64,000 bases of DNA from positions 434,001 through 498,000 of the forward strand of contig NZ_JACHHZ010000001.1 in the NCBI RefSeq assembly GCF_014202975.1. Direction: 5' to 3'. Source of the DNA: Povalibacter uvarum (GTDB lineage: Bacteria; Pseudomonadota; Gammaproteobacteria; Steroidobacterales; Steroidobacteraceae). The position numbers were made by a program, and so were the translations under genes. Under the pieces are notes generated by a model, which worked only from the letters and a program-made list of their open reading frames with translations, was not told where the DNA came from and searched no databases. Below are positions 16,403 through 59,117 of this stretch, piece after piece. How positions within the stretch are numbered: position 1 is the first letter of the stretch; each line of letters begins with the position of its first letter.

Positions 16403-16510
16403 AGCGACGAGCGACGAGCTGCGAGCGCGAACAACGGCACCACGAGTAGCCGGGGTTCCGACTTCCGGTCCCCTGGCTCGCCGCTCACCGCTCGCAGCTC
16501 GCCGCTTCTC
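16403..16510. repeat. inverted heptamer repeats between DUF1820 gene and purL
   Basis: The left arm (16403-16423) has three units of the AGCGACG/AGCTGCG type. The right arm (16476-16510) has five units, GCTCGCC, GCTCACC, GCTCGCA, GCTCGCC and GCTTCTC, in the opposite sense. The unit length is exactly seven throughout. The left arm begins six bases after the DUF1820 stop codon. Confidence 0.9.
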
Positions 16511-16579
16511 CCTGTATCATCCCCTCCCGTATTTTCTCTCGCGGCTCGCGCTTTCCGCGGGCCGACTGGCTCCTCAAGA

Positions 16580-19500
16580 ATGCTGACACTGACTGGCGCG
16601 CCTGCGCTCTCTGACTTTCGCATCAGCAAACTCCTGGCCGCGGTCCGCGCGCGGCATCCACAGATCGAGTCCCTGGGTTCGCGCTTCGTGCACTTCGTGC
16701 AGACGCGACGCGATCTCACGTCCGAAGAGCGGCGCGTCGTCGAGGCGTTGCTGACGTACGGACCTCGCTCCGACGCTGAGGCTTCGGGCACGGCCGCGTC
16801 GCTCGTCATCATTCCCCGGCCTGGAACCATTTCGCCGTGGTCGAGCAAGGCAACGGACATCGCGCATGTCTGTGGGCTCGACGCGATTGAGCGTCTCGAG
16901 CGCGGAATCGCTTTCTGGGTGCGCGCTTCCATGCCGCTCGATGCGCAGACGCTGCGATCGATCGCGCCATTGCTGCACGATCGGATGACCGAAGCCGCCG
17001 TCCTTTCTTTCGACGAAGCGGCGCAGCTGTTCTCGCATGAGCAGCCTCGTCCGCTCGCGACCGTTGCGTTGCTCGCTCGCGGGCGCGCGGCTCTCGAAGA
17101 TGCGAATCGGCAGTTGGGTCTCGCGCTTTCCGCGGACGAAATCGACTACCTCGTCGAAAGCTTCAACAAGCTCGGCCGCGATCCGACGGATGTCGAACTG
17201 ATGATGTTCGCGCAGGCGAACTCCGAGCATTGTCGGCACAAGATCTTCAATGCGGACTGGCTCATCGACGGCGAGCGGCAGAAGAAGTCGCTGTTCTCGA
17301 TGATCCGCAACACGCACGAGCTCAACCCGCACGGGGTGCTCTCGGCGTATCGCGACAACGCGGCCGTCATCGAAGGCCCCGTCGGCAAGCGGTGGTTCCC
17401 GGATGTGGGGACGCATCGTTACGAGTCGAATGAGGAGACGATCGACATCCTGATGAAGGTGGAGACGCACAATCATCCGACCGCCATTTCTCCGTTCCCG
17501 GGCGCTTCCACGGGTTCAGGCGGCGAGATTCGCGATGAGGGCGCGACCGGACGCGGCGGCAAGCCGAAAGCCGGGCTCGCGGGGTTCTCCGTCTCGAACC
17601 TTCGCATCCCCGGCTTCGAACAGCCCTGGGAAAAGGATCACGGCCGGCCGGCGCGCATTGCCTCTGCGCTCGACATCATGATCGAGGGTCCGCTCGGCGC
17701 CGCTGCGTTCAACAACGAGTTCGGCCGGCCGAACATTCTCGGTTACTTCCGGACCTTCGAGCTGCAGGCGGACAGCGGGCAGCGCGCAGGTCTTCGCGGC
17801 TATCACAAGCCGATCATGATCGCGGGCGGCGTCGGCAACGTCCGGCGCATGCATGTCGAGAAATCCGATGTCGTGCCGGGCGCGAAGCTGATCGTGCTCG
17901 GCGGACCGGCGATGCTGATCGGGCTGGGCGGCAGCGCAGCTTCGTCCGTCGGCAGCGGCACCAGCGCCGAGGATCTCGACTTCGCATCCGTGCAGCGCGG
18001 CAATCCTGAAATCCAGCGCCGCGCGCAGGAAGTGATCGACCAGTGCTGGGCAATGGGCCAGCGCAATCCGATCCTTCTCATTCACGATGTAGGCGCTGGC
18101 GGCCTGTCGAACGCCATCCCGGAATCGATCGATCACAGCAAGCGCGGCGGTCGCATCGACCTGCGCAAAGTGCCGTCGGACGAGCCGGGCATGTCGCCGC
18201 TCGAGATCTGGTGCAACGAGGCGCAGGAGCGCTACGTGCTCGCCATCGCGCAAGACCAGCTCGATACGTTCGCAGCGATGTGCGAGCGCGAGCGTTGTCC
18301 GTACGCAGTGGTTGGCGACATCACCGACGATGGCTGGCTGAAGGTCGCCGATCCGAAACTGAAAGCGTCACCCGTCGATGTGCCGCTCAACGTCATTCTC
18401 GGCAAGCCGCCGCGCATGACGCGCGACGTGAAGTCGATCCCGGCTTTGAGCGATGGCTTCGATACGACGGGCATCGATATCCGCGACGCGGCTTATCGAT
18501 TGCTGCGCTATCCCGCGATTGCGGACAAGACCTTCCTCATCACCATCGGCGATCGTTCGGTCGGCGGCATGATCAGCCGCGATCCGTTCGTCGGTCCGTG
18601 GCAGGTGCCGGTGAGCGATGTGGCGGTCACTGTGAGCGACTACACGTCGAACTCGGGCGAAGCGATGGCGATGGGCGAGCGCACGCCGCTCGCGTTGCTG
18701 GACGCCGCGGCTTCGGGGCGAATGGCAGTCGCTGAGGCGGTCACCAACATTGCCGCAGCGGACATCGAGAAGATCTCCGACGTACGCCTGTCCGCCAACT
18801 GGATGGCTGCGTGCGGCGAACCCGGTGAGGATGCAGATCTCTACGCAACAGTGAAGGCTGTCGGCGAGGAATTCTGTCCGGCCCTCGGGATCACGATCCC
18901 GGTCGGCAAGGACTCGCTGTCGATGAAGACCACCTGGAACGATCGCGGAGCGCAGCGAAAGATGGTGGCGCCGCTGTCGCTGATCATTTCCGCGTTCGCT
19001 CCCGTGAAGGACGTGCGTCGCACGCTCACACCGCAATTGCGAACAGACCAGGGTGAGACGCGGCTGGTGCTCGTCGATCTTGGTGCGGGTCGCAATCGAC
19101 TCGGCGGGTCGTGTCTCGCGCAGGTCTATGGCCAGCTCGGCAGCAATGCACCTGATTGCGAAGATCCTCAGGTACTGAAGTCGTTCTTCGCGGCGATCAC
19201 TGAATTGCGGGCCGGTGGTCTGCTGCTGGCATATCACGACCGCTCGGATGGCGGCTTGTTCGCCACGCTCGCCGAGATGGCCTTCGCCGGGCGCTGTGGC
19301 ATTGACGCTGACATCGGTGGCGATGCGGGCAGCGCCGCTCAGCGACTCTTCAGCGAAGAACTCGGCGCCGTGCTCCAGGTTCGCGAGCGGGACGTCGCTG
19401 CCGTCAACGCGGTGCTGGCGAAGCATCGTCTCGCATCGATCTGCCATACGTTCGGCAAGGTCACGAATGAAGATCGCGTGCGATTGCGTGCTGGCACCGC

Positions 19501-20476
19501 GACAGTGCTCGACGAGTCACGCACGGACCTGCGTCGTGCCTGGTCGGAGACCAGCTATCGCATGGTTGAACTGCGCGACAACCCGAAGTGCGCGGTCGAG
19601 CAGTTCGAGACTGCGGTTGATCCGCAGGACCCGGGCCTGAACGCCCGGCTGACGTTCGACCTGCAAGCCGATATCGCCGCGCCATTCATCGCAAAGGGTG
19701 CCCGGCCTAAAGTGGCAATCCTGCGCGAGCAGGGCGTGAACAGCCACGTCGAGATGGCGGCAGCGTTTCATCGCGCCGGTTTCGAACCGTTCGACGTGCA
19801 CATGACGGATCTGTTCGCGCAGCGAACGCAGCTTCAGGATTACCTCGGCCTCGTGATCTGCGGCGGCTTCTCGTACGGCGACGTGCTCGGCGCAGGCGAG
19901 GGTTGGGCGAAGTCGATCCTGTTCCATTCGCGATTGCGCGATGAGTTCACCGCATTCTTCGCCCGCACGAACACCTTCTCGCTCGGTGTCTGCAACGGCT
20001 GCCAGATGATGTCCGCGCTGAGCACGCTGATTCCCGGAACGCAGCACTGGCCGCGTTTCGTGCGCAATCGTTCCGAACAGTTCGAAGGTCGCCTGAGCCT
20101 CGTCGAGGTCATGAAGTCGCCGTCGATTTTCCTCAAGGGCATGGAAGGATCGCGGATGCCGATCGCGGTCGCACACGGCGAAGGACTGGCTGAATTCCGC
20201 TCGCCTTCCGATCTGATGGCGTGCGCGGACACGGGACTGCTGTCGCTGCGCTTCGTCGACAATGCGGGTCGCCCGACCGAACGCTATCCCGCGAACCCGA
20301 ACGGCTCGCCTCAGGGCATCACGGGCATCACGACGCCGGATGGACGCGTGACGCTGGTCATGCCGCATCCGGAGCGCGTCTACAGAACCGTGCAGAATTC
20401 CTGGCATCCGGACGAATGGGGCGAGGACAGCCCGTGGATGCGGATCTTCAGGAATGCGAGAGTGTGGGTGGGGTGA
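16580..20476 (+). CDS. purL: phosphoribosylformylglycinamidine synthase
   Basis: Large single-chain FGAM synthase (fourth step of purine synthesis), 1298 residues, as in other gammaproteobacteria. The N-terminal PurS-like region is followed by two AIR-synthase-type ATP domains; active-site loops include [19 protein letters not shown] and [12 protein letters not shown]. The C-terminal glutaminase has the nucleophile C1138 in GVCNGCQMM and the His/Glu part in MPHPERVYR. The gene stands alone, followed by a GTGGGTCC-type inverted repeat. Confidence 0.98.
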
Positions 20477-20483
20477 ATCTGCC

Positions 20484-20567
20484 TGTGGGTCCGACACTAG
20501 TCGGACGTCAGGCCGAAGGCCCGCGGATCGCTGGCGCGATGACGTCCGGCTAAAGCCGGACCCACAA
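20484..20567. repeat. GTGGGTCCGAC/GTCCGGACCCAC inverted element, copy 1
   Basis: Starts TGTGGGTCCGAC-ACTA-GTCGGACGTC and ends GACGTCCGGC-TAAA-GCCGGACCCACA, so each end is a small hairpin and the two ends are inverted copies of each other. A closely similar element is at 25685-25762. Occupies the convergent purL / membrane-protein spacer. Confidence 0.88.
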
Positions 20568-20572
20568 CCAGG

Positions 20573-21238
20573 TCACTCGTCACCGACCATCTTCATCTTC
20601 GCCACCGCGTCCGCCGCCGGATTCAGTGGCCGCGCAATCAGTCCTGATTGCGTGATCGACACCTGGTAACGCGCGCCGTCGGCCATCGGCATGTACGTCG
20701 CGCTGCCGTAAACCGCGTCCACGAACGGCAGCCAGCGCGGGTGCTCCGTCGACACCTGCCACAGGTCGATACCCGGGTTCTCGCTCAGCGCGTACACCGT
20801 TCGCGTTGCATGCCGTTCCTGTTCGATGTCGCGATAGCGGCCGCCGACGCGCTCGAGTCGATACTGCGCATCGAGGCCCAGCAGGTTCGCCCAGCCTTTC
20901 CATTTGAGCACGCGGGCATCGAGCTGCCATTCGTCGCCCGCGAGCATGAAAATCTGCATCTCGCCGCCGGGCATTTCGGTGAGCGTCGCGCGGTAGCTCT
21001 GGGGCCCTCGGCCTTCGAACACGATCTCAGCGACCGGTCGTTCGTAGGTCAGCCGCGCATAGGTGTGCATGTTCAGCGAGACGACGAAGAACAACCCCGC
21101 GCATGCAAGCAGGAGGAATCCCATGAGAGCAGTGCCGCCCGCAGCGAAGAATCTCGCGCGCAGCAGACGCTGACAGGCAAGGATCAGCAGCAAGCCGCCG
21201 AAAATCGCGATGATTAGCGCAATGGCGTCGGAGTTCAT
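20573..21238 (-). CDS. two-helix membrane protein of unknown function
   Basis: 221 residues that I do not recognise as a characterised family. Two strongly hydrophobic segments are at about 5-23 (AIALIIAIFGGLLLILA) and 37-57 (ALMGFLLLACAGLFFVV). The rest (about 60-221) is predicted to be one soluble domain with conserved-looking GPQSYRATLTEMPGGEMQIF and WANLLGLDAQYRLERVGGRYRDI; such proteins are sometimes labelled as efflux-related in annotations, but nothing here shows transport. It lies downstream of the ammonia-lyase gene on the same strand, separated by a heptamer repeat. Confidence 0.7.
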   Translation of the reverse strand: MNSDAIALIIAIFGGLLLILACQRLLRARFFAAGGTALMGFLLLACAGLFFVVSLNMHTYARLTYERPVAEIVFEGRGPQSYRATLTEMPGGEMQIFMLAGDEWQLDARVLKWKGWANLLGLDAQYRLERVGGRYRDIEQERHATRTVYALSENPGIDLWQVSTEHPRWLPFVDAVYGSATYMPMADGARYQVSITQSGLIARPLNPAADAVAKMKMVGDE

Positions 21239-21246
21239 TGGGAGAG

Positions 21247-21281
21247 GCGGTTGGCGGTTAGCGGTTGGCGGTTAGCAAGAG
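21247..21281. repeat. heptamer repeat (GCGGTTG/GCGGTTA), forward arm only
   Basis: Four units alternate GCGGTTG and GCGGTTA, preceded by GGAGAG and closed by GCAAGAG. It starts nine bases upstream of the ATG of the minus-strand membrane-protein gene. The same unit, opener and closer recur at 37843-37877 and 46537-46571. Confidence 0.9.
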
Positions 21282-22924: not shown

Positions 22925-24601
22925 TCACGCCTCCAGTTTCTTGTACCGGATGCGATGCGGCGAATCGGCATCGTCGCCCTTGCGACGGCGCAGGTCTTCT
23001 ACGTATTCCGCGTAGTTGCCTTCGAACCAGACGACTTCGCTGTTGCCTTCGAACGCGAGGATGTGTGTGGCGATCCGGTCCAGGAACCAGCGATCGTGCG
23101 AGATCACGATCGCGCAGCCGGGGAAACTGAGCAGCGCTTCTTCGAGCGCTCGCAGTGTTTCGATGTCGAGGTCGTTCGTCGGTTCGTCGAGCATGAGAAC
23201 GTTGCCGCCGGACTTGAGCACCTTGGCCAGGTGCACGCGGTTGCGTTCGCCGCCGGACAACTCACCGATGACCTGCTGCTGCTGCGTGCCGCGGAAATTG
23301 AACCGGCCGACATAGCCGCGCGACGAAGTTTCGTAGTTGCCGACCGTGATCATGTCCAGGCCGCCGGAGATTTCCTGCCAGACAGTCTTCGAATCGTCGA
23401 GCGACTGGCGCGACTGATCGACGTATGCGAGCTGCACCGAGGGGCCGAGCCGCAGTTCGCCGGAATCCGGCTTCTCCTGGCCCGTCATCATGCGGAAGAG
23501 CGTCGTCTTGCCGGCGCCGTTCGGGCCGATGACGCCGACGATGCCGCCGGCCGGCAGATTGAAATTCAGGTTGTCGAACAGCAGGCGATCGCCGAAGCCC
23601 TTCTTCAGTGCCTTGGCTTCGATCACGAGGTCGCCGAGGCGCGGGCCCGGCGGGATGTAGATTTCATTCGTTTCGTTGCGCTTCTGGAATTCCTGCGACG
23701 ACAGTTCTTCGAAGCGCTGCAGACGCGCCTTGCTCTTCGCCTGGCGTGCCTTGGGATTCGCACGCACCCACTCGAGCTCGCGCTCGAGGGCTTTGCGCAG
23801 CGCTTCCTGCTGCTTCTCTTCGGTCGCGAGGCGCTTTTCTTTCTGGTCGAGCCAGGAAGAGTAGTTGCCTTGCCACGGAATGCCGTGGCCGCGGTCGAGC
23901 TCGAGAATCCAGCCGGCGACGTTGTCGAGGAAGTAGCGATCGTGCGTAACGGCGATGACCGTACCGGGATAGGCTTCGAGATAGCGTTCCAGCCAGGCGA
24001 CAGATTCGGCGTCGAGATGGTTCGTCGGTTCGTCGAGCAGCAGCATGTCGGGCTGCGATAGAAGCAGGCGGCAGAGAGCAACGCGGCGGCGTTCGCCGCC
24101 GGAGATCTTCGTGACGTCGGCATCCCACGGCGGCAGGCGCAATGCGTCAGCGGCCACTTCGAGCTTGCGCTCCAGTTCCCAGCCGCCTTTCGCGTCGATG
24201 GCATCCTGCAGCTTGGCCTGCTCTTCGAGCAGCTTGTTCATTTCGTCTTCGCCGAGCTCGGGATCGGAGAACCGATCGCTGACGGCGTTGAAGCGATCGA
24301 TCAGCGACTGCACGTCGCCGACGCCTTCGATCACATTGCCGCGCACGTCCTTCGTCGCATCCAGTCCTGGCTCCTGCGAAAGCAGGCCGATCTTGATGCC
24401 GGGCTGCGGTCGCGCCTCGCCGTCATGTTCCTTGTCGACACCGGCCATGATCCGCAGCAGCGAGGACTTGCCCGAGCCGTTGAGACCGAGCACGCCGATC
24501 TTGGCGCCGGGGAAAAAGGACAGGGAAATGTCGCGCAGGATGACCCGCTTCGGCGGGACCACCTTGGAGACGCGATTCATCGTGTAAATGAACTGGGCCA
24601 T
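22925..24601 (-). CDS. ettA: energy-dependent translational throttle protein EttA
   Basis: Soluble ABC-F protein that binds the ribosomal E site and gates the first peptide bond according to ADP/ATP. It has 558 residues with two ATP-binding domains. The first has Walker [10 protein letters not shown] and signature [14 protein letters not shown]; the second has GPNGAGKTT and [15 protein letters not shown] with Walker [14 protein letters not shown] charged linker lies between them. [19 protein letters not shown] is the canonical EttA N-terminus and fixes the start at 24601. It is divergent from the deacetylase-family gene. Confidence 0.95.
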
Positions 24602-24646
24602 TCGCTCTGCTCGGCTGGACTGGGGAGGGGGCGGATGATACCGGGA

Positions 24647-24674
24647 GTTGACGGTTGACAGTTGACGGTTGACA
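24647..24674. repeat. heptamer repeat (GTTGACG/GTTGACA)
   Basis: Four units alternate GTTGACG and GTTGACA in the ettA / deacetylase spacer. No inverted arm was found. A possible TTG start codon for the downstream gene lies inside it, which is one reason to prefer the GTG at 24686. Confidence 0.9.
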
Positions 24675-24685
24675 GTCGCCGCTCT

Positions 24686-25642
24686 GTGACCCCATCTCCC
24701 AAACCCGTCCTCCTCGTCGCCGGCGAGCAGATCGCCCGGTACGGGTTCCCTGACGGCCATCCTTTCGGGCCTGACCGCCACGAGGCGTTCATGCGCGAAC
24801 TGCAGCAGCGGGGGCTCGACCAGAAGGTCGTGCGCGGCAAGCCACGCGAGGCGACGCGGGAGGAGCTCGAGTCGTTCCATACGCCCGAGTACATCGATCT
24901 CGTCCAGAGCCGCTCCATCAGCGGGCTCGGGTTTCTCGACGGTGGTGATACGCCTGCCTGGAAGGGGGTTTTCGAGGCGGCGAGCCATGTCGTCGGCGCG
25001 ACTCTCAATGCTGTCGACGCCGTCATGGAGGGCAGGGCGGGGCGCGCCTTCATCCCGATCGCGGGATTGCACCATGCGGCCCGTCGCAGCGCCGCTGGAT
25101 TCTGCGTGTTCAACGATTGCGGCGTGGCGATCGAGCAATTGCGTCGCAAGCATGGGCTGCGGCGGATCGCCTACGTCGATATCGACGCCCATCACGGCGA
25201 CGGCGTCTTCTACGCGTTCGAATCCGACCCCGACCTGCTGTTCGCCGACCTCCACGAGGACGGCCGCCATCTGTACCCCGGCACGGGTCGCGACGACGAG
25301 ACGGGGCGCGGTCCGGCGGAGGGGACGAAGCTCAACATCCCGTTACCGCCGGGCGCCTCGGATGAGGCATTCCAGGAGGCCTGGTCGCGGGTCGAGGAGT
25401 ACGTCGAAGCCGGGCGTCCGGAATTCATCCTCCTTCAGTGCGGCGCGGACAGCGTCGACGGTGATCCCCTGACGCACATGCAATTCACGCCCGCAGCCCA
25501 CAAGGTCGCCGCCGGGCGCCTGTGCGCGATCGCAGACCGTCTGGGACACGGCCGCGTCGTGGCCATGGGCGGCGGGGGCTACAACCGGCGCAACCTGGCC
25601 CGGGCGTGGAGCGGGGTGGTCGAGGCGCTGCTCGATTCCTGA
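24686..25642 (+). CDS. histone deacetylase family (AcuC-like) hydrolase
   Basis: Zinc-dependent amidohydrolase of the HDAC/AcuC/acetylpolyamine fold, about 318 residues. Catalytic features are [20 protein letters not shown], the zinc and charge-relay segment [12 protein letters not shown], and [14 protein letters not shown] with the second zinc aspartate; GGGGYN near the end supplies the glycine-rich and tyrosine loop. The substrate cannot be read from sequence; acetyl-lysine on proteins or acetylpolyamine are the usual candidates. I chose the GTG at 24686, because an upstream TTG lies inside heptamer repeats. Confidence 0.87.
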
Positions 25643-27100: not shown

Positions 27101-27102
27101 AG

Positions 27103-27167
27103 GGCGGACGGCGAACGGCGGACGGTGAAGAGGCAGTCAAGATTTCCTTCACCGTCCGCCGTCCGCC
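27103..27167. repeat. inverted heptamer repeats between glyA and nrdR
   Basis: The left arm (27103-27130) is four heptamers, GGCGGAC, GGCGAAC, GGCGGAC, GGTGAAG. The right arm (27147-27167) is the reverse complement of three: CTTCACC, GTCCGCC, GTCCGCC. Sixteen bases separate the arms. Together they fill almost the whole 79-base spacer. Confidence 0.93.
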
Positions 27168-27179
27168 AATCACTTCCTC

Positions 27180-29936: not shown

Positions 29937-30046
29937 GCGAGCGACGAGCCAGCCAAGGCTCGGTCCGGAAGGCCCCTTCGCTGAGCTATACTGCGCCCCA
30001 ATCCCATTCTGGCTCACAGCTCGTCGCTCATCGCTACCAGCCCTCC
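29937..30046. repeat. heptamer repeats between ribBX and ribH
   Basis: A clear right arm at 30012-30046 has five heptamers (GCTCACA, GCTCGTC, GCTCATC, GCTACCA, GCCCTCC) ending one base before the ribH ATG. The left arm (29937-29950) has about two degraded units containing GCGAGCG and ACGAGCC, so GAGCGACGAGC pairs with GCTCGTCGCTC. Confidence 0.82.
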
Positions 30047-33923: not shown

Positions 33924-33930
33924 CATCGCG

Positions 33931-34097
33931 TCCGCGATGTCATCCCCGCGCAGGCGGGGATCCATCTGAACTGTGGTCCGCGATGTCATCCCCGCGCAGG
34001 CGGGGATCCATCTGAACTGTTGTCCGCGATGTCATCCCCGCCCAGGCGGGTATCCATCTTCTCAAACGCATGGATTCCCGCTTTCGCGGGAATGACG
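33931..34097. repeat. three 46-bp tandem REP-like units plus one inverted unit
   Basis: Units begin at 33931, 33977 and 34023 (exact 46-base spacing), each holding TCCGCGATGTCATCCCCGC and its GCGGGGATCC hairpin partner, followed by ATCTGAACTGT. The third copy has slightly diverged. An inverted relative with TTCCCGCTTTCGCGGGAA ends at about 34097. It lies between the convergent kinase and dxs genes. Confidence 0.93.
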
Positions 34098-37835: not shown

Positions 37836-37842
37836 GAGAGAA

Positions 37843-37877
37843 GCGGTTAGCGGTTGGCGGTTAGCGGTTAGCAAGAG
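37843..37877. repeat. heptamer repeat after rubrerythrin
   Basis: GCGGTTA, GCGGTTG, GCGGTTA, GCGGTTA, then the closer GCAAGAG, preceded by GAGAA. It starts seven bases after the rubrerythrin stop codon. Nearly identical to 21247-21281 in unit and closer. Confidence 0.93.
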
Positions 37878-39939: not shown

Positions 39940-40056
39940 CCCAGCTGGTTAGCAAGCCAGCCAGAGAAGATAAAGCCGCTGCTGGGCTCTGTTTCGGAAG
40001 CGCAGCGGTGCGCTAGACTTCGCGCCGCCTCCGGTCGGGCGAGCTCCGTTTCTCGC

Positions 40057-40084
40057 CAACCGCCAACCGCCAACCGCTAACCGC
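40057..40084. repeat. heptamer repeat (reverse arm) upstream of parE
   Basis: Three CAACCGC units and one TAACCGC, the reverse complement of the GCGGTTG/GCGGTTA family, then TTCTCC. The repeat ends nine bases before the parE ATG. The opposite side of the spacer (39930-39966) has only a degraded GGTTAGCAAGCC-like segment. Confidence 0.9.
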
Positions 40085-40092
40085 TTCTCCTA

Positions 40093-41979
40093 ATGGCCCA
40101 GTCCTATACCGCTTCAGACATCGAAGTACTCAGCGGACTCGATCCGGTACGACGCCGTCCCGGCATGTACACGGATACGAGCCGTCCCAACCATCTCGCT
40201 CACGAAGTCGTCGACAACTCGGTCGACGAAGCGCTGTCCGGACACGCGAAGCGCATCGACGTCACCGTCTTCAAGGACGGTTCGCTGCAGGTGGCCGACG
40301 ACGGCCGCGGCATGCCCGTCGACATCCACCCGAAAGAGAAGGTGAGCGGCGTCGAGCTGATCCTCACGCGCCTGCACGCGGGCGGAAAGTTCTCGAACAA
40401 GAACTACGAGTTCTCCGGCGGTCTGCACGGCGTCGGCGTCTCGGTCGTGAACGCCCTGTCGAAGAACCTCGAATGCTGGGTGAAGCGCGGCGGCAAGGAA
40501 TACAACATCAGCTTCAAAGACGGAAAGGTGAAGTCGAAGCTGGAGGTCGTCGATGAGGTCGGCAAGAACAACACCGGCACGACGGTGCGGTTCTGGCCCG
40601 ATCCGCAGTTCTTCGAAACAGTCTCGTTCTCGCTGCCGAAGCTCAAGCACGTGCTGCGCGCGAAGGCGGTGCTGTGTCCGGGCCTGAAGGTCACGCTGAC
40701 CATCGAGCAGACCGGCGAGAAGGAAGAGTGGTTCTACACGGGCGGTGTGAACGAATATCTCCGCGACGCACTCGGGCAGGGCGAATGGCTGCCACCCGAG
40801 TTGTTCTCGGGCAGCATCACGGGTGCCGCGGAAGGCGCCGAGTGGGCCGTTGCCTGGCGCGTGGACGAAGGACCGCGTGTCGAGGAAAGCTACGTCAACC
40901 TGATTCCGACGGAGCAGGGCGGCACGCACGTCAACGGCCTGCGACTGGGCCTGACCGATGCGATCCGCGAGTTCTGCGAATTCCGCAACCTGCTGCCGAA
41001 GGGCCTGAAGCTCGCGCCTGAAGACATCTGGGACGGCGTCAGCTACGTGCTGTCGACGAAGATGAAGGAGCCGCAGTTCGCCGGCCAGACGAAAGAGAAG
41101 TTGTCGTCGCGCGAATCCGCGGCGTTCGTTTCCGGCGTCGTGAAGGATCAGTTCGGCCTGTGGCTGAACCAGCACCCGGAGTCGGGTGAAAAGATCGCGC
41201 AACTCGCTATCGCCGGAGCGCAGGCGCGCCTCAAGGCATCGAAGGCAGTGACCCGCAAGCGCATCGCGAGCGGACCGGCACTGCCCGGCAAGCTCGCCGA
41301 TTGCTCATCGCAGGAACCCGAACGCTCGGAGTTGTTCCTCGTCGAAGGCGACTCGGCCGGGGGCTCCGCGAAACAGGCGCGCGATCGCGAGTTCCAGGCA
41401 GTGATGCCGCTGCGCGGCAAGATCCTCAACACCTGGGAAGTCGACGCATCCGAAGTGCTGCAGTCGCAGGAAGTACATCACATCGCCATCGCGATCGGTG
41501 TCGATCCCGGCTCCGACAACCTGAAAGGCCTGCGCTATCACAAGATCTGCATCCTCGCGGACGCAGACTCGGACGGCGCGCATATCGCAACGCTGCTTTG
41601 CGCACTGTTCCTGCGCCATTTCCGCCCGCTCGTACTGGCAGGGAACGTGTACGTCGCAATGCCACCGCTGTATCGCGTCGACGTAGGCAAGCAGGTGTAC
41701 TACGCGCTCGACGACGCCGAGCGAGCCGGTGTCCTCGATCGCATCGCCGCGGAGAACCCGCGCGCGAAGCCGGTCGTCACCCGCTTCAAAGGCCTCGGCG
41801 AAATGAACGCACTGCAGTTGCGCGAGACCACGATGGCGCCCGAAACGCGCCGCCTCGTGCAGCTTACGGTCGAAGCCAAGGACGACGCCGACCAGACACT
41901 CGACATGCTGCTCGCCAAGAAGCGCGCGAGCGATCGCCGCGAGTGGCTGGAGACGAAGGGAAATCTGGCGCAAATCTAA
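40093..41979 (+). CDS. parE: DNA topoisomerase IV subunit B
   Basis: ATPase subunit of topoisomerase IV, which decatenates daughter chromosomes. 628 residues. The GHKL ATPase has VVDNSVDEAL, ADDGRGMPVD and GGLHGVGVSVVNALS; the TOPRIM domain has LFLVEGDSAGGSAKQARDR and ADADSDGAHIATLL. The length (about 630, no insert) and QRGGTHV-like EQGGTHVNGLR fit ParE rather than GyrB. It is followed by parC in the same direction, across an inverted heptamer spacer. Confidence 0.97.
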   Translation: MAQSYTASDIEVLSGLDPVRRRPGMYTDTSRPNHLAHEVVDNSVDEALSGHAKRIDVTVFKDGSLQVADDGRGMPVDIHPKEKVSGVELILTRLHAGGKFSNKNYEFSGGLHGVGVSVVNALSKNLECWVKRGGKEYNISFKDGKVKSKLEVVDEVGKNNTGTTVRFWPDPQFFETVSFSLPKLKHVLRAKAVLCPGLKVTLTIEQTGEKEEWFYTGGVNEYLRDALGQGEWLPPELFSGSITGAAEGAEWAVAWRVDEGPRVEESYVNLIPTEQGGTHVNGLRLGLTDAIREFCEFRNLLPKGLKLAPEDIWDGVSYVLSTKMKEPQFAGQTKEKLSSRESAAFVSGVVKDQFGLWLNQHPESGEKIAQLAIAGAQARLKASKAVTRKRIASGPALPGKLADCSSQEPERSELFLVEGDSAGGSAKQARDREFQAVMPLRGKILNTWEVDASEVLQSQEVHHIAIAIGVDPGSDNLKGLRYHKICILADADSDGAHIATLLCALFLRHFRPLVLAGNVYVAMPPLYRVDVGKQVYYALDDAERAGVLDRIAAENPRAKPVVTRFKGLGEMNALQLRETTMAPETRRLVQLTVEAKDDADQTLDMLLAKKRASDRREWLETKGNLAQI

Positions 41980-41983
41980 AGAA

Positions 41984-42080
41984 GCGGATGGCGGATAGCG
42001 GATGGTGACTAGGGCAGAACGATCCTGGAAGACACCGGCTCCTATCCGCTCCTAGTCACCATCCGCTATCCGCTATCTAC
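41984..42080. repeat. inverted heptamer repeats between parE and parC
   Basis: The left arm (41984-42018) is GCGGATG, GCGGATA, GCGGATG, GTGACTA and a closer GGGCAGA. The right arm (42053-42080) is the reverse complement: TAGTCAC, CATCCGC, TATCCGC, TATCTAC. The arms differ by few bases. The left arm starts five bases after the parE stop and the right arm ends 14 bases before the parC ATG. Confidence 0.95.
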
Positions 42081-42094
42081 TTCCTCAGGACATC

Positions 42095-44359
42095 ATGCCT
42101 ACCCAGCCCCCACTCAACTTCGAAGGCATCGAGCGCCAGCCTCTGCGGGCGTTCACCGAGAAGGCGTACCTCGACTATTCGATGTACGTGATCCTCGATC
42201 GCGCGTTGCCGCACATCGGCGATGGTCTGAAACCCGTCCAGCGACGCATCGTGTATGCGATGAGCGAGCTGGGCTTGTCGGCCGCTTCGAAGCACAAGAA
42301 ATCGGCGCGCACGATCGGCGACGTCATCGGCAAGTTCCATCCGCACGGCGACTCGGCAGCGTACGAAGCCATGGTGCTCATGGCGCAGTCGTTCTCGTAC
42401 CGCTATCCGCTGGTGGACGGGCAGGGCAACTTCGGTTCGCCCGACGATCCGAAGTCGTTCGCAGCGATGCGATACACCGAATCGCGTCTCACCAAGTACG
42501 CGTCGTTGCTGCTGTCGGAGCTCGGCCAGGGCACGGTCGACTGGCAGCTGAACTTCGACGGCACGCTCGAGGAGCCTGTGCTGCTTCCGTCGCGGGTGCC
42601 GAACGTGTTGCTCAACGGTGCGACAGGTATCGCGGTCGGCATGGCGACCGACGTTCCGCCTCACAATCTGCGCGAAGTGGTCGCGGCGTGCGTGAAGCTG
42701 ATCGACGATCCGGATACGACGCTCGGCGATCTGTGCAAGAGCATCAAGGGGCCGGACTATCCGACCGGTGCTGAGATCATTTCGTCGAAGGAAGAAATTC
42801 GCCAGATCTACAAGACCGGCAACGGCTCCATCCGGGCGCGCGCCGTCTATGAGATGGAAGACGGCGACATCGTTCTCACCCAGCTCCCGTACCAGGTCTC
42901 GGGGAGTCGCATCCAGGAGCAGATCGCTGCGCAGATGCAGGCGAAGAAGCTGCCGATGGTCGAGGACGTGCGCGACGAATCGGACCACGAGCATCCCACC
43001 CGCATCGTCATCGTCCCGCGCTCGAACCGCGTCGACGTCGAGCAGCTCATGGCGCACCTGTTCGCGACGACGGATCTCGAGCGCACGTACCGCGTGAACC
43101 TCAACATCATCGGCCTCGACGGACGTCCGCGGGTGATGGACCTGAAGTCCGTCCTGCAGGAGTGGCTGACGTTCCGCTTCGATACCGTGACGCGGCGCCT
43201 GAAGTGGCGTCTCGACAAGGTCAATGCACGACTGCACATCCTCGATGGCTTGCTCGCGGCGTACCTGAATCTCGACGAAGTGATCCGCATCATTCGTCGC
43301 GAGGAAGAGCCGAAGCCGGTTCTGATGAAGCGATTCGATCTCTCGGAGATCCAGGCCGAAGCGATCCTTGAAACGAAGTTGCGGCATCTCGCCAAGCTCG
43401 AGGAAATGAAGATCCGCGGCGAACAGAAGGAACTGGCCGAGGAGCGCGACGATCTCGAGAAGATCCTCAAGAGCAAAGCGAAGCTGAACAAGCTCGTGCG
43501 CGACGAGCTCGTCGCGGATGCAGAGACGTTCGGTGATGACCGGAAGTCGCGCATCGTCGAGCGAGCAGCTGCACAGGCCATCGATGAGACTGAACTCGTC
43601 ACTGTGGAGCCAGTGACCGTGGTTCTCTCGGAGCGCGGCTGGGTTCGCTCAGCGAAGGGCCACGAGCTCGATCCCGCAACGCTTTCGTACAAGACGGGCG
43701 ACTCGTTCCAGGCGGCTGCTCGCGGCCGCAGTACGCAGCAGGCCGTGTTTCTAGACAGCACCGGCCGTGCGTACAGCCTGCTCGCACATACGTTGCCATC
43801 GGCACGCGGTCAGGGTGAGCCGCTGTCGGGTCGCATCGATCCGCCAGAGGGCGCAACGTTCGCGGGTGTGATGATCGGTGATCCCGAGGATCGCTGGGTG
43901 GTCGCTTCCGATGCCGGCTATGGCTTCGTCGTGAAACTCGAGGAGCTCTTCTCGCGCAACAAGGCGGGCAAGGCAGTGCTCAAGGTCCCTGACGGATCGG
44001 GCGTGCTGGCGCCGTCCGCTGTACCGAAAGTCGAAGGCGCGCTGCTTTGCGCGGTGAGCAGCGACGGCAAGCTGCTCGCCTTCCCGGTGGGCGATCTGCC
44101 CGAGCTGCCTCGCGGCAAGGGCAACAAGATCTTCGGCCTGAATGCCAAGAAGGTGGAAAGCCGCGAGGAATTCCTCGCCGGCATCGCCGTCGTCTCTCCG
44201 GGCCAGAACCTCCTCGTGCGCTCCGGCGAACGCAAGATGACGCTGAAGTACGCCGAGCTGAAGGACTATCGCGGTGAGCGCGCGCAGCGCGGAGCGGTGC
44301 TGCCGAGAGGATGGCGGAAGGTGGAGAGGCTGGAAGTGGAGAGTAAGGAAGGCGGCTAG
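42095..44359 (+). CDS. parC: DNA topoisomerase IV subunit A
   Basis: DNA-cleaving subunit of topoisomerase IV, 754 residues. The catalytic tyrosine lies in [11 protein letters not shown]. The quinolone region reads [14 protein letters not shown] and has the wild-type Ser and Glu. The C-terminal beta-pinwheel (about 500-754) has typical [14 protein letters not shown] and KIFGLNAKK. The stop codon TAG is embedded in a heptamer repeat (44352-44372). Confidence 0.97.
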
Positions 44360-44372
44360 CCGTTAGCCAGAG
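44352..44372. repeat. short heptamer repeat spanning the parC stop codon
   Basis: GCGGCTA, GCCGTTA and the closer GCCAGAG, three units, run across the last codons and stop (TAG at 44357-44359) of parC. The first unit is coding, the rest non-coding. Confidence 0.72.
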
Positions 44373-44383
44373 TTCCTTCACTG

Positions 44384-44440
44384 CCGCGAAAGCGGGAGTC
44401 CACTGCGTCGTCTCGAGATCCCCGCTTTCGCGGGGATGAC
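44384..44440. repeat. REP-like inverted pair between parC and the FimX-like gene
   Basis: CCGCGAAAGCGGGAGTCCA at 44384-44402 faces GATCCCCGCTTTCGCGGGGATGAC at 44417-44440. The family matches 10244-10311 and 33931-34097. The two flanking genes are convergent. Confidence 0.88.
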
Positions 44441-46515: not shown

Positions 46516-46536
46516 GCGGGGACTCCTTAAGGAGAA

Positions 46537-46571
46537 GCGGTTAGCGGTTGGCGGTTAGCGGTTCGTCAGAG
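46537..46571. repeat. heptamer repeat upstream of the FimX-like gene
   Basis: GCGGTTA, GCGGTTG, GCGGTTA, GCGGTTC, then the closer GTCAGAG, preceded by GGAGAA. It lies between the divergent start of the FimX-like gene and the end of epmB. No inverted partner found nearby. Confidence 0.92.
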
Positions 46572-48390: not shown

Positions 48391-48425
48391 GCCACTGGCA
48401 GCTGGCTACTGGCTGCTGGCCAGAA
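48391..48425. repeat. heptamer repeat between efp and its terminator
   Basis: GCCACTG, GCAGCTG, GCTACTG, GCTGCTG and GCCAGAA form an exact period of seven. The start is 22 bases after the efp stop. A possible inverted partner (CAGTAGC, CCGCGGC) begins at 48489 and runs into the end of the fRMsr gene. Confidence 0.85.
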
Positions 48426-52481: not shown

Positions 52482-52506
52482 CGGCTAGAATCCTCTCCCG
52501 CTTCAC

Positions 52507-52534
52507 CAACCGCCAACCGCTAACCGCCAACCGC
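52507..52534. repeat. heptamer repeat (reverse arm) upstream of aroC
   Basis: CAACCGC, CAACCGC, TAACCGC, CAACCGC, then TTCTCTCC. It is the reverse-complement orientation of the GCGGTTG/GCGGTTA family and ends 14 bases before the aroC ATG. The spacer between prmB and aroC is otherwise very short. Confidence 0.92.
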
Positions 52535-52547
52535 TTCTCTCCTACCT

Positions 52548-54834: not shown

Positions 54835-54846
54835 GATGAAGTCGTC

Positions 54847-55869
54847 ATGAGCAGAAGTTGGAACGTAGCGGTCCTCGGCGCGACCGGGCTGGTCGGCCAG
54901 ACCATGCTGTCGATCCTCGAGCAGCGCAATTTTCCCGTCGACAAGCTGTATCCGCTCGCGAGTGCGCGCTCCGTGGGCCGGTCGATCAAGTTCAAGGGCA
55001 TTGATGTCCCGGTGCTCGATGTCGAGACGTTCGATTTCTCCAAGGCGCAGGTCGGCTTGTTCTCCGCTGGAGCCAGCGCTTCGAAGATTCATGCGCCGCG
55101 GGCCGGTGCGGCCGGCTGCGTTGTCGTCGACAACACTTCCCAGTTCCGCTACCAGGACGACATCCCGCTGGTCGTGACGGAGGTGAATCCGCATGCGATC
55201 GCCGGCTATCGCAAGCACAACATCATCGCGAACCCGAACTGCTCGACCATGCAGATGCTGGTTGCGCTGAAGCCGTTGCACGATGCCGCCCAGATCGAGC
55301 GCATCAACGTCGCGACGTACCAGTCGGTATCGGGCGGCGGCCAGAAGGCGATGGACGAGCTGACGGCCCAGGCCCGCGCCATCGGGGCGGGCGAGCCGGT
55401 GACGGCGAAAGTCATCGCCAAGCAGATCGCCTTCAACTGCGTGCCGCAGATCGACGTCTTCCTGGACAACGGCTACACGAAGGAAGAGATGAAGATGTTC
55501 TGGGAGACCCAGAAGATCCTCGAGGACAAGACGATCCGCGTGAACGCCACGGCCGTGCGGGTCGGGGTGTACGTCGGCCATTCGGAGGCCGTCCACATCG
55601 AAACGAAGCGGAAGGTTTCGGCAGCCCAGGCCCGGGAGATCCTTTCCCGCGCTCCGGGGGTGGTGGTGCTGGACGACCGCCAGCCGGGGGGGTACCCGAC
55701 ACCGGTGACGGAAGGAGCAGGCGCTGACCCGGTGTACGTGGGTCGCATTCGTGAGGACATCAGCCACGACAGAGGTCTGAATCTGTGGATTGTGTCCGAT
55801 AACGTTCGCAAGGGAGCTGCTTTAAATAGCGTCCAGATCGCCGAGATTTTGGTAAAAGACTACCTGTAA
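54847..55869 (+). CDS. asd: aspartate-semialdehyde dehydrogenase
   Basis: NADPH-dependent branch-point enzyme for lysine, threonine and methionine synthesis. 340 residues. The NADP loop is LGATGLVGQTML, the catalytic cysteine is C132 in NPNCSTMQM, and the base lies in HSEAVHIET. It starts twelve bases after the MFS gene and ends 129 bases before fimV; asd-fimV adjacency is typical of Pseudomonas- and Xanthomonas-like genomes. Confidence 0.97.
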   Translation: MSRSWNVAVLGATGLVGQTMLSILEQRNFPVDKLYPLASARSVGRSIKFKGIDVPVLDVETFDFSKAQVGLFSAGASASKIHAPRAGAAGCVVVDNTSQFRYQDDIPLVVTEVNPHAIAGYRKHNIIANPNCSTMQMLVALKPLHDAAQIERINVATYQSVSGGGQKAMDELTAQARAIGAGEPVTAKVIAKQIAFNCVPQIDVFLDNGYTKEEMKMFWETQKILEDKTIRVNATAVRVGVYVGHSEAVHIETKRKVSAAQAREILSRAPGVVVLDDRQPGGYPTPVTEGAGADPVYVGRIREDISHDRGLNLWIVSDNVRKGAALNSVQIAEILVKDYL

Positions 55870-55998
55870 GCTATATTTGCGCGCGCAAGGTCATGAAGCA
55901 CATGAGCTTTTGATCAGAAAAATGTCGCGCCGATCCCATTACATAACTAGCCGGCAACGCACCTAGGGATGCCTCAGGACACGGTACCGGGAGAGCTG

Positions 55999-58965
55999 AT
56001 GAGAAGACATTTGCCGCGCCTGCTGCTGACGGGCGCACTGCTATCCCCTGCGATCTCGTACGCGCTGGGCCTGGGTGAGATTCGTCTCAATTCCGCGTTG
56101 AACCAGCCTTTCGACGCGGATATCGAAGTCATTGCGCCGACGCGCGAGGAACTTGCCGAACTCCGGGTCACGCTGGCCAGCAACGAGCTCTTCTCACGCT
56201 ACGGCATCGATCGCCCGGCCTATCTGTCCAGCTTCGAATTCGCCGTCAGCCGCACGCGCGACGGCAATGTGACCATCAAAGTCACATCCAACCGTTCAGT
56301 CACCGAACCGTTCGTCACGCTGCTCGTCGAGGCCAACTGGGGCCGCGGCAGGTTGCTGCGTGAGTACACGGTCCTGCTCGATCCGCCGGTCTTCACTCCG
56401 TCCCAGCCCGAAGCGAACAAGCCGGTTACGGCACCGCAGGCGGGAGCGCAGCCGGAAGGACGTATCGAAAGAACCCCGGCGCCTGAGCAGACCCGTCCGG
56501 TCCCGCCGCCCGAGGCCGTCAGTGAGGAGCCGACGCCGGCAGCGACACCGTCCGCCGCGCCTGAGTCGATTTCGGGGACTTATGAAGTCCAGCGCAACGA
56601 TACGTTGTCGCAGATCGCTCGCCGCGTGAATCCGGGCGCCTCGGGAGGTGCCCAGAACCAGACGATGATCGCGTTGTTCCGGGCCAACCCGGAGGCGTTC
56701 GCGGGCAACATCAACCGGCTCAAGGCCGGCAGTGTCCTGCGCGTTCCGGATCTCGCCGAGATCGACACGATTTCCCGCTCCGAGGCCTCGGCCGAAGTGG
56801 CTCAGCAGCAGCAGGCCTGGAGCAGCGCATTCCGTGCGGAAGGTGAGGACGAAAGCTCGCGCCTGCGTCTGGTGACGCCGGAAGAGACGCCTCCAGCGAC
56901 CGTGGCGCCGACGACTCCGTCCGCAGCCACCCAGCCGGCTGCGGCAGCTGCGCCGGGCGCTACGGGAACGACTCCCGCAACGGCACCGGACAAGCGCCTT
57001 GAAGTTACGAGCCCAGGCCTCGCGGGCGTACAGCAGGGCGCGACTGAAACGCCGCCTGCAGCCCAGCCAGAGACACCGGTCGAGCAGGCAACGCCTCCGG
57101 CTGCAACCGAGACGCCGCCCGCTGCAACGGAAACGCCCGCCGCCGAGCCCGAGAAGCAAGCCCGTCCGGTGCGTCCGCGTCCGCAGCCCGTCGAGGAGCC
57201 CGCACCGTCGCTGATGAGCCGCATCGGCGAGTTCTGGTGGGCCTTCGTGGTCGCCGGCGTTCTGCTGGTGCTGTCAGTCATCATGGTCTTCCTCAAGCGT
57301 CGTCGCGAAGCGGCCGGCAGCCCGGACCTGGAGGCGTTCTCGCCGTCCATGTTCGAGCCGCGTGAAGAGCGGGCGTCCGCGGCTTCGCTGTCCACGGCAT
57401 CACGCGAACGCGCTGACGTGTTCAGCGTCGACGATGACGACTTCGCAGAAGAGCCTGTAACGAACTTCCGTGATGCGGATGTCACGCCGCCTGTTACAGC
57501 AGTGCGCAACGACGCGCCGGTGACGCGTCCGTCGGCCGCGGTCACCGCACCGAAGCCGATCGATGACACGCTGAGCAGCGAGACCTCCGTCCGTCTCGAT
57601 CAGCAGGACGCGCTGGCGGAAGCCGATTTCCACATGGCCTACGGTCTGTACGACCAGGCCGCGGATCTCGTGAAGATCGCCATCGATCGCGAGCCTGAGC
57701 GCCGCGACCTGAAGCTCAAGCTGCTCGAAATCTATTTCGTGTGGGGCAACCGCGACCTGTTCCTCGATACGGCGCGCGATCTCTACAACACCCGCGATCA
57801 GGAAGCAGCGGGCGAGTGGGACAAGGTGCTGATCATGGGCCGCCAGATCGCGCCGGAAGACGCGATGTTCAAGGGCGACGCCGGTTCGGCCCGTCTCGAC
57901 CTGGTGGACGTCAACCTCGAAGGCGGCGAGAACCGCGTCGACGTGGATCTGTTCGCCGAGCCGTCCTCGGACGACGCCGGTGGCCTCGATCTCGAGTTCA
58001 CAAGCGGCGAGCGCAAAGCGCCGGTCGGATCCGGTGGCAGCTCCGATCTCGATTTCCTGCTCGATGAGCCGAAATTGGAATCGGACGACGAGCCGACGCG
58101 CGAAATGGATCCGCTCGCCCGGACCCAGGAAACACCGACGATCGAATCGCCGATGCTGGATCGCTCGTCGCAGACCGTGCGCGAGAAGATCGAGAGCCAG
58201 GGTTTCGGCAAGTCCGCGGAGCAGACGGCTGAGCTGTCGCTCGACGATCTCGGCCTGGATGTGGATTCACTCGAGACGACGGGAGCCCTCGAACACACGG
58301 CTTCGCTCGAGAAGGAACCGCCCGAGGAGACCGTGGCCGCATCGCGCGTGTTGCGCGACGACGAGATGACCCAGCTCGCGCCGTCGCTCGCCAGCCTTGA
58401 TCGCGCGACGCTGAGCAGTCTCGATCGCACGATGGAAGCACCGCGTCCGGAGAAGTTCGATATCGAAAGCACGGGTACGATCTACATCGATCAGGTCGAT
58501 CTGTCGGGCAACGACACGGTCGAACAGCCGCGGATCGATATCGATTCGACCGCTTCGATGAGCAAACCCCGTGAAGTCGATCTCGATGTCGATCTCGGCG
58601 GCTTCGATGAAACTCCGCAGCGCGGCGGCGATACGTTGCGCCAGCCGCGTGCCGATTCGGACCGGTTCTCGGATGACGTGTTCGCGGACCGCACGAGCGA
58701 GTTCCCGAAGATCGATCTCGACGTGGGTGAAGCGCTCGGTGCCGATGACCATGCGCCGACCAACAAGCAGGTCGTGACCGAGATGGAGCTGTCCGAGCTC
58801 GAACCCGTCACGATGAGCGAAGTGGGCACGAAGCTCGACCTCGCGCGCGCCTACATGGATATGGGCGATCCGGACGGTGCACGCAGCATCCTGGAAGAAG
58901 TGCTGCAAGAAGGCACCTCGAACCAGAAGCAGGAAGCGCAGCGGCTGCTCGATTCAATCCGATGA
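55999..58965 (+). CDS. fimV: FimV-family peptidoglycan-binding polar hub protein
   Basis: 988 residues, with roles in type IV pilus assembly and polar localisation. The signal peptide (MRRHLPRLLLTG...YALGLGEI) is followed by the FimV N-terminal domain (IRLNSALNQPFDADIEV), a LysM motif at about 194-255 (TYEVQRNDTLSQIARRV), a Pro/Ala/Thr-rich linker, one transmembrane helix at about 415-435, and a long acidic cytoplasmic region. The end (about 950-985) is the conserved FimV C-terminal repeat TKLDLARAYMDMGDPDGARS. I use the ATG at 55999 because GGGAG precedes it. Confidence 0.93.
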   Translation: MRRHLPRLLLTGALLSPAISYALGLGEIRLNSALNQPFDADIEVIAPTREELAELRVTLASNELFSRYGIDRPAYLSSFEFAVSRTRDGNVTIKVTSNRSVTEPFVTLLVEANWGRGRLLREYTVLLDPPVFTPSQPEANKPVTAPQAGAQPEGRIERTPAPEQTRPVPPPEAVSEEPTPAATPSAAPESISGTYEVQRNDTLSQIARRVNPGASGGAQNQTMIALFRANPEAFAGNINRLKAGSVLRVPDLAEIDTISRSEASAEVAQQQQAWSSAFRAEGEDESSRLRLVTPEETPPATVAPTTPSAATQPAAAAAPGATGTTPATAPDKRLEVTSPGLAGVQQGATETPPAAQPETPVEQATPPAATETPPAATETPAAEPEKQARPVRPRPQPVEEPAPSLMSRIGEFWWAFVVAGVLLVLSVIMVFLKRRREAAGSPDLEAFSPSMFEPREERASAASLSTASRERADVFSVDDDDFAEEPVTNFRDADVTPPVTAVRNDAPVTRPSAAVTAPKPIDDTLSSETSVRLDQQDALAEADFHMAYGLYDQAADLVKIAIDREPERRDLKLKLLEIYFVWGNRDLFLDTARDLYNTRDQEAAGEWDKVLIMGRQIAPEDAMFKGDAGSARLDLVDVNLEGGENRVDVDLFAEPSSDDAGGLDLEFTSGERKAPVGSGGSSDLDFLLDEPKLESDDEPTREMDPLARTQETPTIESPMLDRSSQTVREKIESQGFGKSAEQTAELSLDDLGLDVDSLETTGALEHTASLEKEPPEETVAASRVLRDDEMTQLAPSLASLDRATLSSLDRTMEAPRPEKFDIESTGTIYIDQVDLSGNDTVEQPRIDIDSTASMSKPREVDLDVDLGGFDETPQRGGDTLRQPRADSDRFSDDVFADRTSEFPKIDLDVGEALGADDHAPTNKQVVTEMELSELEPVTMSEVGTKLDLARAYMDMGDPDGARSILEEVLQEGTSNQKQEAQRLLDSIR

Positions 58966-58972
58966 TGCGGAA

Positions 58973-59117
58973 GTAGATAGCGGATAGCGGATGGCGGATA
59001 GTCAGAGGCGCAGTGGCTGCGAGTAAGCGGCTTCACTGCGCCGTCGCTGCTATTCCTCGGTCCGTTGGATCGGTCTTGCTCCGAAACCCCATCCGCCATC
59101 CGCTATCCGCCATCCCC
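58973..59117. repeat. inverted heptamer repeats between fimV and truA
   Basis: The left arm (58973-59007) is GTAGATA, GCGGATA, GCGGATG, GCGGATA and the closer GTCAGAG. The right arm (59090-59117) is CATCCGC, CATCCGC, TATCCGC, CATCCCC. Inside, GGCGCAGTG and CACTGCGCC (59006-59042) pair as a second hairpin. The arms flank the whole 160-base spacer. Confidence 0.94.

Follow-up and report, generated by a model that had tools for sequence, protein, structure and literature searches.

The short tandemly repeated repetitive (STRR) sequences of cyanobacteria are tandem intergenic heptamers. Heptamer repeats have also been described with the units GGGNATC in Xanthomonas and GGGGAYT in Nostoc (PMC4692102) and TAACTGA in Beggiatoaceae (PMC4679880). 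The rRNA intervening sequence (IVS) of Coxiella burnetii carries AGAAGA and tandem GACAGAT heptamers ahead of the start of its S23p gene, has a 28-bp inverted-repeat stem and is excised by RNase III (PMC4990558); in the accessible part of that paper, its heptamers are not connected with intergenic repeats. Here we analyze period-7 arrays in the spacers of a 64,000-nucleotide stretch of the Povalibacter uvarum genome (the window; G000:C1:434001-498000 in a genome of 6.32 Mb), which probably form the stems of small IVS/S23p-type hairpins that are present as copies without the gene.

The arrays share with the Xanthomonas and Nostoc repeats the heptameric unit, about four units per array, convergent pairs and the position and direction at open reading frame (ORF) ends; unlike those repeats, they comprise many units per genome, and the unit can differ between orthologous spacers. 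The accessible text of PMC4692102 gives no link to S23p. The Beggiatoaceae repeats are likewise tandem intergenic heptamers, whereas inverted arms and S23p are not reported in the accessible part of PMC4679880, a comparison made by description. Common to the window elements and S23p-type IVSs is a stem of terminal inverted repeats (7 of 7 elements folded); the Coxiella IVS further resembles the intergenic elements in its tandem heptamers in the stem, the S23p gene in the loop of full copies and the way it takes the place of a small structure at its target (PMC4990558). The window copies differ from such IVSs in being intergenic, numerous and gene-less. A further likeness is to the hairpin-forming doublets of repetitive extragenic palindromic (REP) sequences (REPINs) and their REP-associated tyrosine transposases (RAYTs), in which dispersed palindromic doublets are accompanied by a partner gene that occurs once per genome, is mostly inherited vertically and lies next to repeats of the same class (PMC3116915). 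Here, unlike there, the partner is S23p rather than a Y1 transposase (no RAYT search was made), and the arms are heptamer arrays. Intergenic heptamers (PMC4692102, PMC4679880) and heptamers in one IVS (PMC4990558) were thus already known; elements of IVS type located outside rRNA, many of whose copies lack the gene, would be a novel form of a known type, and no paper joining intergenic heptamers with IVSs or S23p was found in the open-licence literature.

Inverted heptamer arms at gene boundaries

The 36 window spacers of at least 20 bp (4,074 bp) held 13 period-7 arrays, nine of period 14, one each of periods 9 and 13 and none of the remaining periods between 4 and 15. Markov-shuffled spacers gave a mean of 0.036 period-7 arrays and a maximum of 1 in 500 rounds. 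The original prediction, made from the window alone, had listed 13 sites with strictly period-7 repeats of changing unit, a common opener and closer, and a single generating process behind them. Eleven of these sites hold a period-7 array at the threshold of our scan (score at least 10), those at 30012 and 44352 being degenerate and below it, and the expected excess over shuffled spacers and over other periods is borne out, since periods other than 7 and 14 gave at most one array. Overlooked at that stage were the inverted partners at 16476, 42061 (within 42053..42083), 59089 and 27152. We name the unit families F1 (GCGGTTR), F2 (GCGGATR), F3 (GTTGACR), F4 (GGCGRAC), F5 (GAGCGRY-like) and F6 (GGCTRCT).

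Across the P. uvarum genome, the pattern GCGGTTAGCGGTT, which represents two tandem F1 units, has 83 + 72 = 155 matches (overlaps counted), and its reversed control has none. Twenty further stretches were sampled, of which 12 were placed on known GCGGTTAGCGGTT sites and are therefore biased (43 period-7 arrays in 240 kb); the 8 blind ones (160 kb) held 2 period-7 arrays, while periods 12 and 15 gave 4 and 3 arrays there, respectively. Array density along the genome is uneven. An Rfam search of the window returned a single tRNA as its sole match, and no array lies within an rRNA gene.

The anatomy of the arms was examined in 464 kb of this genome (the window plus the 20 stretches, with genes from simple in-house calls), where 56 of 65 arrays are intergenic. 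Array-bearing spacers lie between co-directional genes in 35 cases and between convergent genes in 3, with none divergent (n = 38), compared with 163 co-directional, 31 convergent and 34 divergent among spacers of at least 50 bp. Every spacer with more than one arm has a rightward arm first and a leftward arm after it (13 of 13; the reverse order never occurs), and 25 of the 38 have one arm. In a second set of pairs, drawn from P. uvarum and relatives with at least three exact F1 or F2 units in both arms, all 23 lie between co-directional genes, with the left arm a median of 8 bp past the gene and the right arm a median of 15 bp ahead of the next one. F1 arms (GCGGTTN, n = 40) contain four units in 27 cases, three in 9 and two in 4; arrays longer than four units occur elsewhere in P. 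uvarum and in other genomes. Position -1 of these arms is A in 39 of 40, mostly as AGAA, and position +1 is G in 39 of 40, followed loosely by YCAGAA; the common opener and closer were counted in this family, and the other families were inspected by eye. Read from outer to inner end, the units are G-rich (G > C in 62 of 69), and all seven folded paired elements yield predicted RNA hairpins with z from -6.4 to -12.0.

The heptamer elements accordingly combine the inverted hairpin-forming doublets of REPINs and IVSs with the convergent pairs flush with ORF ends seen in GGGNATC-type repeats. The window arrays are arms of about four heptamers that point inward from gene boundaries; we regard the arms, their inverted order, the predicted hairpins and the placement at co-directional gene boundaries as established. 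Exact copying of one arm from its partner found no support: within families, the arms of one site resemble each other no more than those of different sites (likeness 99 versus 89 ± 18 in 10 F1 pairs; 158 versus 136 ± 22 in 16 F2 pairs). No common core was found among 50 loops (2 of them nested duplicates), strong matches being confined to two gene-bearing loops with each other, the nested duplicates and one 28-nt match.

S23p genes enclosed by heptamer arms

In two relatives, G003 and G011, one element has a loop of 472-476 nt that encodes a four-helix-bundle protein. Of the 14 genomes of the genus, 11 have a member of the family PF05635 (23S rRNA-intervening sequence protein, S23p), and the 19 genus loci found by profile (one counted twice) have arms on both sides in 10 cases, on one side in 4 and on neither in 5. 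One P. uvarum copy (C1:525605-525916, locus L246), 27.6 kb beyond the window, is flanked by arms of the F2 unit, GCGGATR; GGCTAGY-type arrays adjoin the second (C4:581313-581621). The S23p connection is thus situated outside the window.

Among 398 Pseudomonadota genomes drawn, 62 had PF05635. We read 65 Pseudomonadota loci (29 returned by search, 20 + 16 hand-picked) and 17 of 40 tblastn-found plasmid records (14 of the 17 cyanobacterial); with each gene counted once, the set comprised 99 distinct loci from Pseudomonadota genomes and mostly cyanobacterial plasmids. Period-7 arms flank the gene on both sides in 50 of the 99 and on one side in 28. An array directly adjoins the gene in 71 of 93 loci, on both sides in 41; at a distance of 410-650 bp, 1 of 91 loci has one. 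In 39 of 50 loci, one arm repeats the unit of the other in inverted orientation with at most one base changed; shuffled partners gave a mean of 3.3 and a maximum of 9. Other periods beside the gene were rare in the first 85 loci, with period 8 in 6 of 80 and the rest in at most 2 except the multiple 14. Units are closer to each other the more identical their S23p proteins are (Mantel r -0.28, with none of 1,000 permutations as low; one locus counted twice), and the heptamer unit, judged from these comparisons, follows S23p relatedness.

S23p genes between such arms were seen in Pseudomonadota, cyanobacteria, Riemerella and Gemmatirosa (with period 8 in Gemmatirosa), and the likeness to cyanobacterial STRR drawn in the original prediction is apt, as S23p genes on cyanobacterial plasmids have heptamer arrays at their flanks. 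In the class, 1 of 369 genomes (G404) has the GGGAATC pattern, as in Xanthomonas GGGNATC, and its one PF05635 gene is flanked by GGGAATC arms. All 5 genomes known beforehand for S23p with the unit GTAGGCA (four of one genus) have arrays of it, compared with 4 of 15 others, and in one of these others, G444, such arrays prove to adjoin an S23p gene. At a shared locus with conserved flanks, five related species share S23p: the gene is flanked by GCGGTTR arms in G003 and G011, has one such arm in G007 and is arm-less in G001 (L252) and G008 (L253); GCGGTTAGCGGTT matches genome-wide number 9, 49, 34, 0 and 0, respectively.

Three cyanobacterial S23p genes with one shared unit (L337, L339, L340) have no similar flanks by blastn, nor does a pair whose units differ by one base (L332, L335). 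Since S23p genes with the same or nearly the same unit thus have unrelated flanks, these comparisons suggest that gene and arms move together in cyanobacteria. On three cyanobacterial plasmids (L331, L333, L338), an S23p gene with an array at either flank (period 7 on two plasmids, period 8 on one) has cas genes as its neighbors, cas6 and cas4 in two cases and cas10 and cmr3 in the third. '23S_rRNA_IVP' genes have been reported in cas loci (PMC3936711), and their presence there may reflect an inserted element rather than a function.

Placement inside rRNA was seen in G605, where two mutually identical PF05635 genes (L343/L344) lie within 23S rRNA genes, with Rfam large-subunit matches spanning both. 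TCAGGAA-type heptamers stand on both sides by eye, one side being above threshold. A third copy is intergenic with GAGTGAG arms and a fourth has no arms; rRNA copies and an intergenic copy thus coexist in one genome, a likeness to IVSs.

The P. uvarum S23p matches the solved structures 2gsc (XCC0516) and 2rld, with five chains each, and XCC0516 is described in the title of a cited paper as five four-helix bundles. PF05635 has been argued to be homologous to Avd of diversity-generating retroelements (PMC10053308), and two of three S23p proteins tried matched bAvd below the family cut-off. The published motif GxxRxxxSxxxNxxE, read literally, occurs in none of 85 proteins, and the shortened RxxxSxxxNxxE in 74 of 85. 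Ten of 11 pairs have a dN/dS ratio of 0.04-0.14; dS approaches or exceeds 1 in several of these and is saturated in the remaining pair. As estimated from these ratios, purifying selection acts on S23p. Together with this selection, we regard as established the position of S23p between same-unit arms in many genomes and the link between unit and S23p relatedness.

Window sites and their orthologous spacers

Arms and pairs of the window are listed below; the gene name parE is our reading of a close match to ParE-type proteins.

Heptamer arms in the window, in window coordinates
Position	Strand	Feature	Basis and remarks
16403..16426	+	Left arm, unit ~AGCGACG (F5), 6 bp past upstream gene	Array scan
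16476..16506	-	Inverted right arm, partner of 16403 arm, GGCGAGC-type, next gene 73 bp on	Array scan
21246..21273	+	Lone arm, 4x GCGGTTR (F1)	Array scan
24647..24673	+	Lone arm, 4x GTTGACR (F3), probably intergenic	Array scan, orthologue matches
27103..27125	+	Left arm, GGCGRAC (F4)	Array scan; hairpin z -6.4, spacer 27101-27179
27152..27167	-	Inverted right arm, partner of 27103 arm	Paired in predicted fold
30012..30040	-	Degenerate arm, GAGCGAY-like, sub-threshold	By eye; G012 orthologous spacer has GTTGACR/GTTGGCR
37842..37872	+	Lone arm, 4x GCGGTTR	Array scan
40054..40085	-	Lone arm, 4x GCGGTTR, parE starts 7 bp on	Array scan
41984..42012	+	Left arm, 3x GCGGATR + GTGACTA (F2), between genes 40093-41979 and 42095-44359	Array scan; hairpin z -10.1
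42053..42083	-	Inverted right arm, partner of 41984 arm	Array scan, fold
44352..44368	+	Degenerate arm, sub-threshold	By eye; G004 and G007 orthologous spacers have arms of other units
46536..46563	+	Lone arm, 4x GCGGTTR	Array scan
48395..48420	+	Lone arm, GGCTRCT-type (F6), in convergent spacer	Array scan
52506..52534	-	Lone arm, 4x GCGGTTR	Array scan
58976..58999	+	Left arm, GCGGATR (F2)	Array scan; hairpin z -8.4
59089..59115	-	Inverted right arm, partner of 58976 arm	Array scan, fold

The array at 24647 falls inside a predicted ORF (22925-25270). Orthologous matches to this ORF end at 24601-24603 and restart at 24704 or later, and because they break off around the array, it is probably intergenic; the called start of the ORF is probably too far upstream.

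In related genomes, the orthologous spacers have different heptamers or no array. Spacer 58966-59125, with GCGGATR in P. uvarum, has GGGGATA/GCGGATA in G012, GTGAGTC in G004 and GTAGRCY in G007; its orthologue measures 10 bp in G002, 0 bp in G006 and 102 bp without arms in G011. Likewise, spacer 41980-42094 has GCGGATR in P. uvarum, a GGGGATA-type unit in G012, GTGAGTS in G004 and GCGGTCR/GCGGTTA in G007, and measures 10-49 bp in six other genomes and 85-248 bp, free of period-7 arrays, in four. GCGGTTR is common to P. uvarum and G012 in spacer 52482-52547, where G007 has GTTGACR and G002 a GGCTRCT-type unit. A mixed array in G012 has GTTGACG, GTTGGCG and GTTAGCG side by side, which suggests that units drift by point changes.

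The orthologous spacers of G012 hold eight arrays of period 7, five of period 8 and two of period 9, and eight-base arms of the same kind were also seen at L330, L338, L289 and L352 (e.g., in Gemmatirosa and Picosynechococcus). Seven is a common but not a required arm period, and the strict period of the original prediction holds within the window but not among relatives. Conserved occupancy of the sites gave Fisher p values of 0.023 (G012), 0.032 (G007), 0.004 (G004) and 0.097 (G002); none of the four associations survives restriction to comparable spacers, a result compatible with an inherited site as well as with repeated insertion.

A closer comparison is offered by G011 and G001, which share long blocks of 92-98% identity and in which four G011 elements face arm-less G001 spacers. 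At L226:7323, the old spacer was replaced, since spacer sequence common to G001, G003 and G008 is absent from G011; spacers at the other three sites are too divergent for replacement to be judged, and one site bears an arm of a different unit in G003. No target-site duplication was seen by eye at four filled GCGGTTR sites, where spacers are replaced or too divergent to align. Small hairpins (z of -2.2 or below against mononucleotide shuffles) were predicted in 5 of 10 arm-less orthologous spacers and not in the other 5; such hairpins may be a target, which we note as a lead only.

Samples from relatives were poor in arrays, with no period-7 array in 100 kb of G011 and two in 77 kb of G004. Eighty named loci around a ParE-like gene (743 kb) held 8 arrays of period 7, not above period 9 (10) or period 24 (12); at a slightly lower threshold, L047, L049 and L109 of this set show heptamer arms by eye. 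The first 15 contigs of the G004 assembly (L192-L206) have 39.8% GC compared with 58-64% in other samples of the genus and are possibly foreign. A different repeat lies at window positions 33930-34059, a 46-bp unit present 2.8 times with ATCCCCGC...GCGGGGAT palindromes and REP-like in character. Single palindromes of this type occur elsewhere (window 44417-44440; L023 ~7780-7810), some adjoining heptamer arms.

Origin of the elements

Intergenic heptamers could be free simple-sequence repeats that arise by replication slippage, with the length of seven set by polymerase contact (Mrazek 2007, as cited in PMC4679880). Many genomes are reported to have heptamers as their most frequent long repeats, and long arrays do occur in some relatives; slippage, however, predicts neither inverted pairs nor a fixed direction from gene boundaries, and does not lead one to expect the same unit in both arms, the enclosure of S23p or the prevalence of four units in GCGGTTN arms, none of which is longer in the sample of 40. 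Slippage may lengthen existing arrays; as their origin it is hard to keep, and we consider it highly improbable. A role as G-quadruplex regulatory elements, proposed for GGGNATC and GGGGAYT (PMC4692102), would agree with the four-unit preference, convergent pairs and ORF-end placement reported there and with the G-rich outer-to-inner reading of our units. It is nonetheless very unlikely here, as GTTGACR, GTGAGTS and GCGGTTR share the architecture without a GGG run (GCGGATR also lacks GGG) and orthologous sites retain that architecture while the G pattern changes. The least credible proposal is that a RAYT transposase mobilizes the arms as REP/REPIN palindromes and that S23p is a bystander: the logic, a pair of palindromic ends together with one conserved partner gene, is the same (PMC3116915), but heptamer arms enclose S23p across phyla and follow its relatedness (no RAYT search was made).

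The element might also be real and linked to S23p while the protein is a passenger or regulator, the spread being due to recombination or host enzymes and the unit-S23p link to joint inheritance. This we consider unlikely, though less so than the foregoing proposals. Most compared proteobacterial loci are vertically inherited, and the Coxiella authors think that S23p is possibly not made (PMC4990558). Against it stand the purifying selection on S23p, the five related species in which an armed S23p goes with dispersed arms and an unarmed one with none, and the cyanobacterial genes at L337, L339 and L340, which are related and retain their unit in unrelated neighborhoods.

The explanation that we favor, and consider probable, is that of IVS/S23p-type hairpin elements. 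A full copy would consist of the opener, heptamers, an S23p gene of ~125 codons and inverted heptamers, and the window would contain arm-short loop-arm copies without the gene and lone arms. S23p, a pentamer in solved relatives, would recognize its own heptamer, and such recognition would keep a single unit in both arms and in all copies of a lineage, leaving lineages free to differ. By analogy to what has been proposed for RAYT on REPINs, S23p may act in trans on gene-less copies; RNase III may cleave the stems in transcripts, as it does in IVSs of rRNA. An incoming copy would replace the old spacer and so place its arms flush with stop and start codons, by a copying route that is itself conjectural. 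The arrangement would be a two-part system in the REPIN-RAYT manner, in which a single S23p locus is conserved and hairpins with the same arms but no gene are dispersed. We favor it because an armed S23p accompanies dispersed arms and because flanks are shared in proteobacteria and unshared in cyanobacteria. The single generating process of the original prediction survives as one kind of source, with a common architecture and many units enclosing S23p, without the strict period of seven.

Several observations weigh against this explanation. No movement of elements was seen in the genome comparisons. The window has no S23p gene, neither of the two PF05635 hits in P. uvarum has GCGGTTR, the commonest unit of that genome, and G006 (84% complete) has GCGGTTR arrays and no PF05635 hit. 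Among the 99 loci, 21 are without a period-7 arm. Eleven of 16 compared S23p pairs share both flanks, and a twelfth shares its single testable flank; by this measure, many S23p loci are old and vertically inherited. Apart from the two gene-bearing loops, none of the 50 loops holds an S23p remnant, and no selection on RNA pairing was seen at the degenerate purine (A.C 24 versus G.U 17 in transcript-sense stems).

More tentatively, and with some doubt on our part, intergenic heptamers across bacteria could mark the termini of a single, ancient class of mobile hairpins. An Avd-like pentameric S23p would read a lineage-specific heptamer and spread both itself and gene-less copies, possibly via an RNA hairpin that, once excised, takes the place of small hairpins or spacers at its target, and rRNA IVSs would be copies that landed in rRNA genes. 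The model makes a directly testable prediction, the binding of S23p to its own heptamer. If S23p proves to move the elements, the class itself would be new; if the model is true, two puzzles would be joined, that of the seven-base intergenic repeats and that of the origin of rRNA IVSs and the role of S23p.

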